Source: a virus
DNA: 29,846 bases
IMG/VR virus record: IMGVR_UViG_3300020051_000066
Location: 1 to 29,846 of that record
Reading direction: 5' to 3' (one strand)
The position numbers and the translations under genes were made by a program. The notes below the pieces were generated by a model. The model saw only the letters and a list, made by a program, of their open reading frames with translations. It did no database searches and was not told the origin of the DNA. Positions 15,227-23,530 of this stretch are shown here, piece after piece (the stretch's first letter is position 1; each line of letters opens with the position of its first letter).

Positions 15227-15661
15227 TTAACCGTTAGGTACGGATAAACTTACGTTCGCTGATGGTCCTGATGCAACAAGCAATGCTTTATCACCTACTG
15301 CAAATTGTGAACCTGTTCCTAATGCTCCAACATGGAAGTGACGTCCAGTAATCTTACTTGCAAAGTAAGTACCACCTGCACTATCTGTACCAGTAATTTG
15401 GCATTGACCTGCACTAAGTGATCCATGTACTACTGCAGTAAGTGTTAGTGTTTGTGTCCCACCAGCAGTTGTACAACGAAAACGCTTTGTGCCTTTTTGA
15501 ATAACAACTGTTGTATCCTGGGCACTTGCACCATCTACAAAACCTTTCATTATAATTTGATTGCCACCTAAACCACTTGCTCCAATTGGCAGTGTGGTAC
15601 CAGATGCGGCTACTTTTGATGTTCCGCCAACTGTTTCGGCGCTCTTAATCGGTCTTCCCAT
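15227..15661 (-). CDS. Small virion structural protein (144 aa)
   Basis: Starts MGRPIKSAETVGGTSKVAAS. It is Gly/Ser/Thr/Ala-rich and beta-prone, with a basic centre 'IQKGTKRFRCTTAGGTQTLT' and 'ASKITGRHFHVGALGTGSQF'. Proteins that begin MGRPIK and follow this layout recur in the structural regions of marine T4-like phages, but I cannot assign a T4 name. GGAG precedes the ATG, and a late promoter sits at 15741-15748, about 80 bases upstream. The gene is a single-cistron unit bounded by that promoter and the terminator at 15177-15207. Confidence 0.65.
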   Translation of the reverse strand: MGRPIKSAETVGGTSKVAASGTTLPIGASGLGGNQIIMKGFVDGASAQDTTVVIQKGTKRFRCTTAGGTQTLTLTAVVHGSLSAGQCQITGTDSAGGTYFASKITGRHFHVGALGTGSQFAVGDKALLVASGPSANVSLSVPNG

Positions 15662-15751: not shown

Positions 15752-16351
15752 ATGGGACTCATCAAGTTTTATCAGAATACAAAAAATATAGCAATTGTGC
15801 GTAATCACAAGTGTGCTACTACCACTATGTTAAGTTATGTTGCACAGGTATTATGGATGGCAGATCCAAATGAACAACAACATTATCAAAATTTTCAAAA
15901 CATGCGACCGGGAGTGTATAATAAGGCTAGACTCTTCGAACAATATAAAGATCAATTGATGTCAGCTGATATACGGATCGCACTTTGGCGTGATCCTATT
16001 GATAAATTTGTAAGTGGGTTTTATCATACTATGAGCAATCCAGCAAATAAAAATTTGTGGATAAAATCACCCAGTCTATCTAACTTTCTCAAAGACTTCC
16101 ATGTTTATAAACAAAATCCAAATGTTCAAGATCATTGCGAATCCAATACTGCTAGGCTAGGCCCTGATCGTAGCATCTATACTCATATCTTTAATTACAA
16201 AGAAGTACATAAGATTGCTGAACTTTTGGGTGTGCCAGCTGGCACAACACATCATCGCAAAGACAATTCCATGCGAGCTGGTCCTACGAAAACACAACAA
16301 TTACGTATTAAACAAATTATGCTAGAAGATTATGTTAATGGCTGGTATTAA
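15752..16351 (+). CDS. Sulfotransferase-like protein (199 aa)
   Basis: Two PAPS-binding features of the sulfotransferase fold are visible. The 5'-phosphosulfate loop is at residues 18-26 (NHKCATTTM, compare the family pattern PKxGTTxL/xKCGTTS). The 3'-phosphate region is 'IALWRDPIDKFVSGFYH' with Arg80 and Ser88. The family transfers sulfate from PAPS to sugars, lipids or proteins; the acceptor here is unknown. A later His-rich 'TTHHRKDNS' resembles the C-terminal part of short bacterial and phage members. It is the only gene on the plus strand between 1 and 28203, has no clear ribosome site before ATG 15752, and ends just before a bidirectional terminator. Confidence 0.7.
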   Translation: MGLIKFYQNTKNIAIVRNHKCATTTMLSYVAQVLWMADPNEQQHYQNFQNMRPGVYNKARLFEQYKDQLMSADIRIALWRDPIDKFVSGFYHTMSNPANKNLWIKSPSLSNFLKDFHVYKQNPNVQDHCESNTARLGPDRSIYTHIFNYKEVHKIAELLGVPAGTTHHRKDNSMRAGPTKTQQLRIKQIMLEDYVNGWY

Positions 16352-16355
16352 AGTC

Positions 16356-16385
16356 AAAAAAATAGCACCCGAAGGTGCTATTTTT
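16356..16385. terminator. Bidirectional Rho-independent terminator between convergent genes
   Basis: Stem TAGCACC/GGTGCTA (16363-16369 and 16374-16380) with a four-base loop, flanked by seven A on the left and five T on the right. It can therefore act in both directions, ending the sulfotransferase-like gene (+) and the porin gene (-). Its 29-base core is identical to the terminator at 2659-2683. Confidence 0.85.
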
Positions 16386-16399
16386 ATATTTTTCTATAA

Positions 16400-17389
16400 T
16401 TAGAACTTTGCTGCAATTTTAAATTGTAATACTGAACCATCATCGTCTGTTGATGCTTCTCCGCCGTTCTTGTACTCATAGTCTGTGTAGTTTACATAAC
16501 CAGTTAACCCTGGTGCAATTGCATGTTTGATTTCTACCATGTTTTGCTTTAGGTTTTCTTTTTCAGAACCTGATACATCTAAACTATCTTCTGATTCCAT
16601 AGTGGAAACTGCAATTGTTGTTTCTGATGTAAGAGCATAACTTGCACCAGCACCTACTGTTTCAATGTCCTCATCAGCACCTTCTACAGTACTCATTGCA
16701 CCAATAATTGCAATGTCACCAAATGATATTTTTGCACCAATGCTTTGTGACTCGTTGTCAATTGCACCTGATACTTCTTGCATACCCTTTGTGTAACCAA
16801 TTTTGATGTTCTCATGAGTGTAACTTGCGCCATATGAAGTTGAATCAGTTGTACCCGTTGCACCTGAATCCATGTAACTTACACCAGCCTGTATTCCGCC
16901 GAAACTTGGAGAAATATACGATACTTTATCACTGTCTGCACCATATGTTTTTTCACCTGCGTTTGTTTGGATTGAAGCATTTGTATATGTGCCTGTTACT
17001 TCTTCGTCCATGATGTCCTGCTCACCAATACCAAAGTTATCTGTTACAGCATCATTGCCGCCTAGTATTAGTTTTCCTGCAGAGCCTGAAATATAAATTG
17101 ATGATTCGTCAATAGTTGCACTTGAATCTGCAACAGTTGTCATTTCAACAACCATACCATAATCTAAACCAGCGTCTGATTTATTAGAAAAAGTAAATTT
17201 AATCTCGTTGTCACTGTTTCCCATACTATCACCTTTTTGTGAAGCAATTTGAGAATCAACGTCTTTGTAGTAGAACTCGCTTGTGCCTGAAATGGCAAAC
17301 TTTGGTCCTTTTTCAACTGCGGGTTCTTGTGCCAATGCAGTCGTACTTAGTAATGCTACTAAAGCACCACTTGCTAGTAGTTTTTTCAT
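16400..17389 (-). CDS. Outer-membrane porin (Gram-negative porin family), phage-encoded (329 aa)
   Basis: A clear Sec signal peptide is seen: MKKLLASGALVALLSTTALA, with likely cleavage after Ala20. The mature part has the beta-barrel pattern of general porins: 'KFAISGTSEFYYKD' as first strand, 'GKLILGGNDAVTDNFG' matching the family's 'G.l.lG.q......g' segment, then 'SPSFGGIQAGVSYMDSGA', many alternating short strands, and a terminal Phe (QFKIAAKF) as in the beta-signal recognised by the BAM complex. It is closest in style to alphaproteobacterial porins. It would insert in the host outer membrane and form a diffusion channel. AAGGA precedes the ATG, a perfect late promoter lies at 17483-17490, and terminators flank the gene. 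It is not a T4 core gene. Confidence 0.85.
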   Translation of the reverse strand: MKKLLASGALVALLSTTALAQEPAVEKGPKFAISGTSEFYYKDVDSQIASQKGDSMGNSDNEIKFTFSNKSDAGLDYGMVVEMTTVADSSATIDESSIYISGSAGKLILGGNDAVTDNFGIGEQDIMDEEVTGTYTNASIQTNAGEKTYGADSDKVSYISPSFGGIQAGVSYMDSGATGTTDSTSYGASYTHENIKIGYTKGMQEVSGAIDNESQSIGAKISFGDIAIIGAMSTVEGADEDIETVGAGASYALTSETTIAVSTMESEDSLDVSGSEKENLKQNMVEIKHAIAPGLTGYVNYTDYEYKNGGEASTDDDGSVLQFKIAAKF

Positions 17390-17525
17390 TATTATTTCCT
17401 TATTAAGTTGGGGGTCTTTTTTGTTTTGAAATCCTTAACTTTAGATTTAACATTAGTTGTGTTTGTTATAAACGCAACATTTTATTTATAAAAATTAATG
17501 AAATTTTCTCAAAACGTGAAAGAAT
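17390..17525 (-). promoter_or_regulatory. Porin late promoter (TATAAATA at 17483-17490) and long leader
   Basis: Minus strand TATAAATA is a perfect late consensus. The predicted start near 17477 gives a leader of about 88 bases, longer than at most genes here. An imperfect inverted repeat (17456-17464 with 17470-17478) would sit at the very 5' end of the mRNA. Confidence 0.6.
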
Positions 17526-17551
17526 AAAAAACAGGGCCGAAGCCCTGTTTT
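17526..17551 (-). terminator. Strong Rho-independent terminator after gp23
   Basis: Minus strand stem ACAGGGC/GCCCTGT with a TTCG loop followed by six T (the outermost pair is A-T). It lies 25 bases after the gp23 stop and closes the head operon. On the plus strand the stem is followed by only four T. Confidence 0.9.
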
Positions 17552-17575: not shown

Positions 17576-18760
17576 TTATGAGAATGAAATGTTTGACATT
17601 GCAACTTCACCAACATAGTCACCAGCGTTACCTAGTGATGATGCTGTGTTTGATAACTCAACATAACCATAACGTGTCATAAATGAAACTACTGGCTCAA
17701 ATGTTGCTGGATCTAACACTGTACCACTTGACATCAACGGTACATATGGACAATAGAATGCTGCTGCATCTGTCTCTGATGAACCTTTGTATCCAACTAG
17801 TACTGCAGTTGCGTCTGCCGCATATGAATCAACATACACACGCATTGCACCATTTAATGTACCTACAAACTTAGTGTTTGTTGGTGCTTCAAATGTACCT
17901 TCTGTTGTTCTAGCAAATGCTGAAGTTGAAGCTGACTGAAGAACTGTTAATGCCTCAGGACTTACAACTGCATAGTTACCAGCACCACGACGTGTACGCT
18001 GAGCAATCTTATTTGCTGTTCTGTTTATTAATACTGCAAGAGCTGCATGTTCGTCACCTACGTATGTAGCTGTACCACTTACTGCTGCTTGGTTGTATGT
18101 TTCTTCTGTTGCTGCTAATGAACGTAGTGAACCAAGAACTTCTTGATCGATTTCTGCAGTAATCTCTTGAGCTAATGCTGCCATGATTTCTGCTTCAACG
18201 TCAATACCGTGCATTGATTGTGCGTCTTGAGCTGCTTCAAAAGTCCAACGTGCTTGTAGCTTACGTGTCTTTGCTTCGACAGGTTGCTTCAAGATTTGGA
18301 TTGAAAGTTGACTTCCGCCTGTTCCTTCTTTTGCTGCTGTAACATCAGCTTTACCAGTTGTAGTAGAACCTGAATATGCAGTTGCAATTTTGAACGGGCT
18401 TAATGCTTCGTCACCTGCTACTGTGTCTGTGTCAAATGGTGCACTTGCTGATGAAGTTACACTGTCTGCATATCTTACACGTAGAGTGTGAATTTGTCCA
18501 ACTGGACCTTGCATTGGTTGTACACCGACAATTTCGTTAGCGATAACTGTTGGCATAACACGTCTAATCACTGGAAGGATTACACGGTTTAATGTTGCTA
18601 CGTTACCAGCGGCTGATGCACCTGATGTTGCTGCCTCTTGTAAGTAACGCTTTGTGTTTTCTAACACAACGCTCATGCTATTGCGACGATTACCTTCTAG
18701 ACCTTCAAGAAGTGCGTCTTTGGTATCAGTCCAACGGCTTTCTAATAGTACGTCTGACAT
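17576..18760 (-). CDS. 23: Major capsid protein gp23 (394 aa)
   Basis: Forms the hexamers of the icosahedral head shell. The N-terminal region (SVVLENTKRYLQEAATSG) and 'TLNRVILPVIRRVMPTVIAN' with 'VGVQPMQGPVGQIHTLRVRY' are hallmark gp23 sequences of T4-like phages. The centre has 'AKTRKLQARWTFEAAQDAQS' and 'EIMAALAQEITAEIDQEVLG', also typical. A likely gp21 cleavage site is LQE/A after Glu42, matching the T4 rule (L/I)-X-E. At 394 residues it is shorter than T4 gp23 (521) because insertion regions are reduced. A strong ribosome site (GAGGAG) precedes ATG 18760. It follows gp22 by 21 bases and ends at a strong terminator. Confidence 0.95.
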   Translation of the reverse strand: MSDVLLESRWTDTKDALLEGLEGNRRNSMSVVLENTKRYLQEAATSGASAAGNVATLNRVILPVIRRVMPTVIANEIVGVQPMQGPVGQIHTLRVRYADSVTSSASAPFDTDTVAGDEALSPFKIATAYSGSTTTGKADVTAAKEGTGGSQLSIQILKQPVEAKTRKLQARWTFEAAQDAQSMHGIDVEAEIMAALAQEITAEIDQEVLGSLRSLAATEETYNQAAVSGTATYVGDEHAALAVLINRTANKIAQRTRRGAGNYAVVSPEALTVLQSASTSAFARTTEGTFEAPTNTKFVGTLNGAMRVYVDSYAADATAVLVGYKGSSETDAAAFYCPYVPLMSSGTVLDPATFEPVVSFMTRYGYVELSNTASSLGNAGDYVGEVAMSNISFS

Positions 18761-21763: not shown

Positions 21764-23530
21764 CTATCCACGCCTACGTGTTCTGGTTCTAGGATAGATT
21801 GTACCTGTTGTGGGTCGTGTGTTTACATCTTTGTTGTATGTATTAAATGCCATATTACCTGATGTTGCCCTGTGATTCTTCCACAACACAATCCTATCAA
21901 TATCCGAACCATCTATGCTTACTCTTGTGTTTACATCTACAGTAATTGCGTCTGCGGTGTCCTGCATCAGTCCTGTGACAGCATTGTTACGCAGATATGT
22001 TCTTGCTTGTGCTTGTGTGAGTGTTGGATATACTTCTGCCAAACAAGCCAATAATCCTGCTACAAACGGCGCACTAAAACTTGTGCCTTGACTAAAACTA
22101 ATAGTGTCCCAGTTTGGTTGGTTCTGTTCCTGTCCTGGATAGGGAATACCATACGCAATCTCGCTGTTTTCCCAGGCGGATATTATTGATTCTCCTGCGG
22201 CATAAACATCTATGCCTGGACCCCAGTTGCTGAAGGTTGCTTTTCCTTGATCTGTGTGGTTGCTGAAAGCACCTACGCTGATAGCACCACTCATATAATA
22301 TTTGTCACCTCTGTGATAGTAATCTCTAAATGGAAAGGTTCCACTACCAAACGGAAACTCATAATCTTTGTTCACATAAGCCGCGGTCTGAACAAGATAG
22401 TTGTCCCAGTTATCGCCACCTTCTACATCAATGTATCTATTTTTGTTGCCTGCGGAGATGGTTACAATAATACCTTCCGCAATGGCATCTTCTATGTCGC
22501 TATCCACTGAAGGACTGTTTACTTGGAAGTTGGTGTTGCTCACAAAGTCTTCATCTGATGCATATATACCTCTTGCGTGTAGTTCAGCGGCTGTTAGATT
22601 GTTGCCTGATCCTTTGTCAAGATCCACTCCTTGAAAGTGAGCCCAAGCGGCTCCGGTGAGATTGTTTACTGTTCCCAAACTCACACTCACAATAGTAGGA
22701 TTTTTTCTACCAGTTGCTGGATTTACTGCTTTGGTTCTGTGGAACTCTCTGATGTATTCAAAAGTTCTGTCTGTGCTGTTGCCACCGCTCAAGTTCCTTT
22801 CGGCTCTGAGGCTGTAGTTATACACGTTAGCACTGTTGGCAGGTCCGTATAGTGTTCCTGCGGCATAACTGGCACACGCCGTTGGATGACTGTTTACTTC
22901 TTGTGCATCTGCGGCTCTTGCAAGTGCAAAGGTGTAGGTGTAGTTTGTGCCACCTGTGATTGTGTTGTAGTGTTGTCCCCAGTTGTAGTCCACTGCTCTA
23001 CTAAAAAAATCTTCGTGGTCATACCAGGTGTGCTGGTCCACTATAATAACATCTACATTTTTACCACTTGCACTATATGTCACGTTGGTGTCAACATATC
23101 TGTCATCTGAACTTGCGGCATCTGATCCCCAACCAGATCTGTTGGCGCTTTCTATGTGTCTCAATAGTCCCCAACTTGTATGATTAACCGAATATTTTAT
23201 TGCTGGGCCTGTGCCATCTGCTCTTGTGAATGTTGTTGTTGCTGTGGCACTGGTGCTTTTGTCAAATCTACCTGTGTAAGTTGATTCTGTGATTGTGATA
23301 TCTCTATCTAAAACTGATTGTGGCATCACCTGTTGCACACGTTCGTCAGCCGCAACCGTTTGTGCTTCTTCCATTGTGAGCATATAACCTGTGGTTCTTG
23401 AAGTTGGTCGTCTGTCCTCACAGTCAACACTCCTATCTGGAATGTGTAGAGCACCACCTGGTGTTTCCATATCATCATAAAATGCTTGGATGTCTTCACC
23501 ACGTTTCAGTGTGACTTGGAACAGTTCCAT
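21764..23530 (-). CDS. Subtilisin-family serine protease (S8-like, 588 aa)
   Basis: The full catalytic set of the subtilase family can be read: Asp165 in 'VDVIIVDQHTWYDHEDF', His215 in 'EVNSHPTACASYAAG', oxyanion Asn362 in 'VTISAGNKN', and Ser484 in 'FSQGTSFSAPFVAGLLA'. The DTG and HGT motifs are altered to DQH and HPT, but the catalytic residues remain. No signal peptide is seen; the first ~110 residues (with 'TTGYMLTMEEAQTVAADERV') look like an inhibitor-type prodomain. The C-terminus is basic (RTRTRRRG). It is coupled by TAATG to the fibre-like gene at 23530 and lies next to the portal operon, so it may be a virion protein that processes structural proteins or host surface targets. T4 has no counterpart here. 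Confidence 0.88.
   Translation of the reverse strand: MELFQVTLKRGEDIQAFYDDMETPGGALHIPDRSVDCEDRRPTSRTTGYMLTMEEAQTVAADERVQQVMPQSVLDRDITITESTYTGRFDKSTSATATTTFTRADGTGPAIKYSVNHTSWGLLRHIESANRSGWGSDAASSDDRYVDTNVTYSASGKNVDVIIVDQHTWYDHEDFFSRAVDYNWGQHYNTITGGTNYTYTFALARAADAQEVNSHPTACASYAAGTLYGPANSANVYNYSLRAERNLSGGNSTDRTFEYIREFHRTKAVNPATGRKNPTIVSVSLGTVNNLTGAAWAHFQGVDLDKGSGNNLTAAELHARGIYASDEDFVSNTNFQVNSPSVDSDIEDAIAEGIIVTISAGNKNRYIDVEGGDNWDNYLVQTAAYVNKDYEFPFGSGTFPFRDYYHRGDKYYMSGAISVGAFSNHTDQGKATFSNWGPGIDVYAAGESIISAWENSEIAYGIPYPGQEQNQPNWDTISFSQGTSFSAPFVAGLLACLAEVYPTLTQAQARTYLRNNAVTGLMQDTADAITVDVNTRVSIDGSDIDRIVLWKNHRATSGNMAFNTYNKDVNTRPTTGTIYPRTRTRRRG

Follow-up and report, generated by a model that had tools for sequence, protein, structure and literature searches.

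Why does a T4-like phage carry, beside the gene of its major capsid protein, a gene for an outer-membrane porin, and what could such a protein do in an infected cell? These questions are raised by a stretch of viral DNA of 29,846 nucleotides (IMG/VR record IMGVR_UViG_3300020051_000066), the whole of which is referred to below as the window. The features of the locus are listed in Table 1.

Table 1. Features of the porin locus in the window
Feature	Position	Strand	Remarks
MGRP gene	15227..15661	-	Downstream border of the cargo slot
Sulfotransferase-like gene	15752..16351	+	PF03567, E 1.5e-4 (weak); convergent with porin
Bidirectional terminator	16358..16385	- (both strands)	Common to porin and convergent sulfotransferase-like gene
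Porin coding sequence	16400..17389	-	329 aa; Porin_4 (PF13609)
Signal peptide	17330..17389	-	20 codons, MKKLLASGALVALLSTTALA|Q, A-L-A cleavage site; read from sequence
Ribosome-binding site AAGGAA	17396..17401	-	Read from sequence
Conserved 5'UTR element CCCCCAACTTAA	17402..17414	-	Common to porin copies in context B
T4-type late promoter TATAAATA	17483..17490	-	Consensus form; 93 nt before porin ATG
Intrinsic terminator	17528..17551	-	Between gp23 and porin promoter
gp23, major capsid protein	17576..18760	-	PF07068, 5.8e-99; upstream border of the cargo slot

The porin gene and its protein

The open reading frame, which occupies exactly the coordinates of Table 1, was matched by PF13609 (Porin_4) with an E-value of 9.4e-31 and 108.2 bits, against a Pfam cut-off of 27. 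Its residues 9-308 align with positions 4-309 of 310, i.e. with the whole profile, and the Porin_4 score lay above the cut-off in all viral records searched (8/8). The initial annotation had described a full-length porin with signal peptide and terminal Phe that is not a T4 head or tail component; the sequence and its family agree with both statements, and the match to a Gram-negative porin family that was to be sought by HMM was found. Signal peptide and C-terminal Phe are kept in all complete relatives. The protein has neither Cys nor Trp and is strongly acidic (mature pI 4.06), and it is probably a small acidic general-diffusion porin, which would form a channel in the outer membrane.

Porin_4 alone was matched in Pfam at E up to 1, with no homology to Porin_1, and PHROGs and NCBIfam gave no match. 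A tblastn search found nothing in 50,697 records of cultured phages and, in plasmids, one weak match to a Skermanella porin (E 2e-3). A profile built from the phage porins alone retrieved nothing from the PDB at E up to 1; when porins of the putative host order (see below) were added, the closest solved porin was Omp32 of Delftia/Comamonas acidovorans (1e54, 2fgr; E 3.7e-5, profile positions 86-227), followed by PorB P.IB (0.027). Omp32 is betaproteobacterial and very remote from the phage porin and, in contrast to this strongly acidic protein, it is anion-selective. With regard to the 16-strand barrel with constriction loop L3 that is typical of such porins, the porin sequence can be divided by eye into eight hydrophilic loops and seven short turns, and an AlphaFold model made from an alignment of nine viral rows had a pLDDT of 32 and did not show the barrel.

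A late transcription unit downstream of gp23

The motif NATAAATA occurs 12 times in the window and lies at most 120 bp upstream of a gene, in sense orientation, in 11 of these cases, where 0.5 would be expected. The maximum reached by chance placement was 4 in 5,000 draws, the best permuted motif had 4 such occurrences, and NATAAATA is a genuine late-promoter signal in this genome. These statistics, together with the position of the porin promoter, bear out the perfect late promoter that had been claimed for the gene. The terminators proposed on both sides of the porin are also present (terminator-like sites in the window: 7 vs 1.5 expected), and with its own late promoter and these flanking terminators the porin does form a separate late transcription unit.

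The porin lies 186 bp downstream of gp23, and further T4-type neighbours were recognised with Pfam: gp20 (PF07230, 4.4e-104), the gp21 protease (PF03420, 3.2e-28) and a baseplate protein (PF12322, 1.3e-15). The earlier placement of the porin between capsid and tail fibre genes holds on the upstream side, where gp23 is found, but not downstream, where the next gene is the convergent sulfotransferase-like gene; all fibre-like PHROG matches lie below 13.6 kb in the window. A subtilisin-like protease (PF00082, 6e-22; 21764-23530, - strand) was observed within the head operon, with gp20 on one side and the gp21 protease on the other.

Viral relatives and phage lineage

Relatives of the porin are encoded by 21 further IMG/VR records (21 dataset numbers), with 67-100% identity depending on the query. 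The same gp23-porin junction recurs in the independent contigs L002, L003, L004 and L005, so misassembly with host DNA, a concern of the initial annotation, is excluded. The porin dS between L005 and the window is 0.32, and pairwise dN/dS among phage porins is 0.05-0.21; on these estimates the phage porin is under strong purifying selection. Recurring junctions, divergence, selection and the naturally empty site of L259 (see below) jointly rule out host contamination or misassembly.

The gp23 of the window is closest to that of the jumbo T4-like phages Phosso (469 kb), Vibrio 2.275.O (349 kb), PA5oct and MIJ3 (both about 287 kb) (Arenbergviridae), with 63-68% identity. The window itself is a 29.8-kb fragment, and jumbo size (>200 kb) was read from G001, a contig of 328,292 bp that bears the relative L006 and one porin; its gp23 is 81% identical, and its terminase is 63% identical to that of the porin-bearing contig L017. 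The porin-bearing lineage is thus one of jumbo T4-like phages. Among 12 large viral contigs and three cultured jumbo phages, G001, a known carrier, was the only one with Porin_4 above the cut-off, which makes the porin a minority trait; unlike the window, Phosso, 2.275.O and MIJ3 had no Porin_4. A further jumbo phage from the gp23 clade encodes in tandem (L340:1459-2623; contig G901 of 374 kb) two proteins of 183 aa, each with a signal peptide and a terminal F. They are probably small outer-membrane barrels, and one of them has a weak Porin_4 match (E 4e-6).

Relocation of the porin and the cargo slot after gp23

Three genomic contexts of the porin were found among related phages: (A) after gp23, in the window and L002-L005; (B) between a terminase-adjacent structural gene and gp32, in L007-L009, L012, L013, L017 and L024-L026; and (C) at 193.6 kb in G001, and likewise in L015 and L016. 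In G001, site A (gp23, L165) and site B (terminase/gp32, L166) are syntenic but empty. The nearest porin-less gp23 relative, L259, has a gp23 93% identical to that of the window and flanks of the slot with 84.5% and 79.7% DNA identity, and its gp23-MGRP interval measures 135 bp, vs 1,914 bp in the window, where it holds the porin and the sulfotransferase-like gene. The porin is cargo, present in single copy, and has relocated among at least three genomic sites. One contig (L014:1-1036) combines C-type upstream with B-type downstream sequence around the porin, and represents either a recombinant phage or an assembly chimera.

The gene seems to carry its signals along when it moves: a 5'UTR element (written CCCCAAC(T)TTAAGGA) is found at sites A and B alike, and the terminator stem AGCACCTTCGGGTGCT after the porin is near-identical in contexts A and C. 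The promoter motif NATAAATA lies upstream of the porin at sites A and B; site C has in this position only a variant, NCTAAATA, that differs by one base. The sulfotransferase-like gene adjoins the porin in L003, L004 and L005, is missing together with it at the empty sites of L259 and G001, and does not accompany it at sites B and C. Separately, in unrelated cellular genomes (L169, L179, L192, L204, L206 and L212), an alphaproteobacterial porin adjoins a gene that begins LASYPKSGNTW and resembles a sulfotransferase.

Other genes occupy the slot after gp23 elsewhere: P-II (1e-28) and AmtB (3e-102) in L277 (5845-7382), a NUMOD3/HNH endonuclease in L258, a NUMOD3/GIY-YIG endonuclease in L273 and, directly after gp23 in MIJ3, an annotated HNH homing endonuclease. 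In jumbo T4-like phages this slot is a hotspot for cargo, filled with the porin, P-II and AmtB or homing endonucleases, or empty. Neither the relocation of the porin nor its place in such a hotspot had been noticed in the initial annotation. A glnK-amtB pair near gp23 has been reported in a T4-like contig (PMC8115048), and with the genes of L277 this gives nutrient cargo in the slot a precedent.

Origin of the porin

A sample of 398 genomes from the phylum gave, as its best match to the porin, a partial one (1.9e-15). With the search restricted first to the class and next to the order of genome G764, 54 of 136 genomes matched at E up to 1e-10, the best match (L229) being full length with an E-value of 7.6e-70. 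The nearest porins of this order are about 39-40% identical to that of the window over the full length. They are encoded at a leuS-lipoprotein-porin-yggS locus (gene names from N-terminal sequences) with a G+C of 0.29-0.48, in genomes of 1.1-2.7 Mb. Judged by these values the order may, as a guess, be SAR116 (Puniceispirillales) or another marine order of this kind.

In two maximum-likelihood trees, the phage copies fall without exception into a single clade (support 100/99), which has the porins of the G764 order as its sister group, and the porins of SAR11 and other Alphaproteobacteria fall outside both. The phage porin has a single origin, and its position in the trees points to one capture from an alphaproteobacterial chromosomal general porin. 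The chromosomal porins of the G764 order resemble the phage porins in full-length homology, length, charge and C-terminal F, and differ from them in their cellular locus and regulation, their variable loops and their place outside the phage clade; the phage copies are a separate clade under a phage late promoter.

The pointer to SAR11 in the initial annotation did not hold, as the tree puts the nearest cellular porins in another alphaproteobacterial order. Although a Porin_4 porin is present in 7 of 11 SAR11 genomes, these porins lie outside the phage clade, and the phage-porin profile matched none of 14 SAR11 genomes, so that a SAR11 origin is not supported. Four SAR11 porins (L341-L344), very diverged in sequence, were seen at the same leuS-lipoprotein-porin-yggS locus as in the G764 order.

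A motif scan of genome contigs found no cellular relative of the phage porin, a host-porin query found no match in viral contigs, and the gp23 of the window phage, sought as a sign of infected cells, was found in 0 of 136 genomes of the G764 order. We infer from porin ancestry only that this order may include the present host.

Possible roles of the porin

With the gene, its family, promoter, terminators, purifying selection, single origin and relocation established, a role in solute supply can be proposed. A lytic jumbo T4-like lineage would have taken the general porin from the chromosome of an alphaproteobacterial host lineage, once and long ago, given it a late promoter and a terminator of its own and kept it as single-copy cargo. 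Late in infection, translation of the porin would be followed by export through the Sec system of the host and by BAM-assisted folding into the outer membrane, where the porin may keep up or alter the flux of small solutes during the mass production of virions. We give an even chance to this reading, that of a nutrient cargo gene in which a host-derived general porin sustains or changes small-solute flux late in infection; insertion into the outer membrane, an open channel and a nutrient benefit are predictions. Of the roles suggested in the initial annotation, altered nutrient entry, replacement of host porins and a block of superinfection are all conceivable, and no evidence pointed to a receptor decoy. 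Phage and host porins match in net charge (-31.0 vs -32.6) and in length (324 vs 327 aa), and this agreement speaks for a general pore of like kind. The channel may have retained its selectivity, and the equal charge gives no sign of an ion selectivity altered relative to the host. Solute supply is weighed above receptor masking because of the ammonium transport genes found in the same slot and the host-like pore. Against it count that late timing equally suits receptor masking and that the loops are less variable than the strands, as pure permeability would not require frozen outer loops.

The main competing explanation, possible though doubtful, is surface remodelling, by which superinfection or re-adsorption would be avoided: at a late stage the phage porin would replace or dilute the main host porin, and neither the phage's own fibres nor competitors would then recognise infected cells and lysis debris. 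The adjoining sulfotransferase-like gene would contribute by modifying glycans of the cell surface. The late promoter is consistent with this, as are the retention of that gene beside the porin in L003-L005 and the low identity to the nearest host porins. So are the loops: in the phage copies variability is lower in the eight hydrophilic loops (0.167) than in the strands (0.257), with a circular-shift fraction of 0.034 (0.024 if all copies are included) under a by-eye topology, and three sets of host porins show the reverse tendency. Such frozen loops would suit a surface role, although the contrast is a lead only, as the loops were assigned by eye and the pLDDT of the model is low. The weak sulfotransferase match and the absence of that gene from sites B and C also speak against surface remodelling, and the exclusion genes of T4 itself are early. 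Joining several of these elements, a late make-over of the outer membrane may be conceived, in which a relocatable porin with frozen loops displaces the main host porin and hides cell and debris from adsorption, in some lineages with the help of a glycan-modifying enzyme; we regard this composite as rather unlikely. If true, the use of porins would be general among lytic marine phages instead of being confined to lysogens.

An additional porin might aid lysis and release by weakening or opening the outer membrane; this would suit the late expression signals and the head-gene neighbourhood, but it is very improbable for a general porin of host-like size and charge, in a step for which phages normally use spanins. 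Cellular DNA misassembled into a viral contig, or a functionless passenger, might be suspected because porins are cellular genes and L014 may be a chimera, but this has next to no probability given the identical junctions in independent contigs, the dS and dN/dS values, the phage promoter in place of a host one and the failure to find a cellular copy of the phage porin clade.

Relation to known phage porins and significance

Phage-encoded porins are already known. The Lc porin of the lambdoid phage PA-2 (NmpC) is inserted into the host outer membrane, where it serves in receptor replacement. It differs from the porin of the window in belonging to a temperate phage, in being of the OmpC type (Porin_1) and in its expression in lysogens, whereas the window encodes a Porin_4 protein (the only Pfam match) under a late promoter of a T4-like phage. 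A viral OmpL porin, like that of the window a presumed auxiliary gene of marine viruses, has been described from viral contigs of oxygen-minimum zones (PMC8115048); by its description it is set apart by its Flavobacteriales origin and its position beside glnK-amtB, downstream of amtB. What is new here is a late-promoter, relocating Porin_4 porin that belongs to jumbo T4-like phages and can be traced to an alphaproteobacterial source, and a literature search of incomplete coverage found no paper describing one.

Porins are usually seen as receptors that phages exploit, and here a T4-like lineage of aquatic phages has a late-controlled porin of its own, kept by purifying selection and moved about in the genome, which suggests that such phages remodel the outer membrane of the infected cell during virion production. 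This raises the testable question whether lytic phages re-engineer the outer membrane during infection, for supply or for avoidance of re-adsorption. The ancestry of the porin points to a likely host lineage for an uncultured group of jumbo phages, and the slot after gp23, with its porin, P-II and AmtB, and homing endonucleases, is a place in which more auxiliary genes may be sought.
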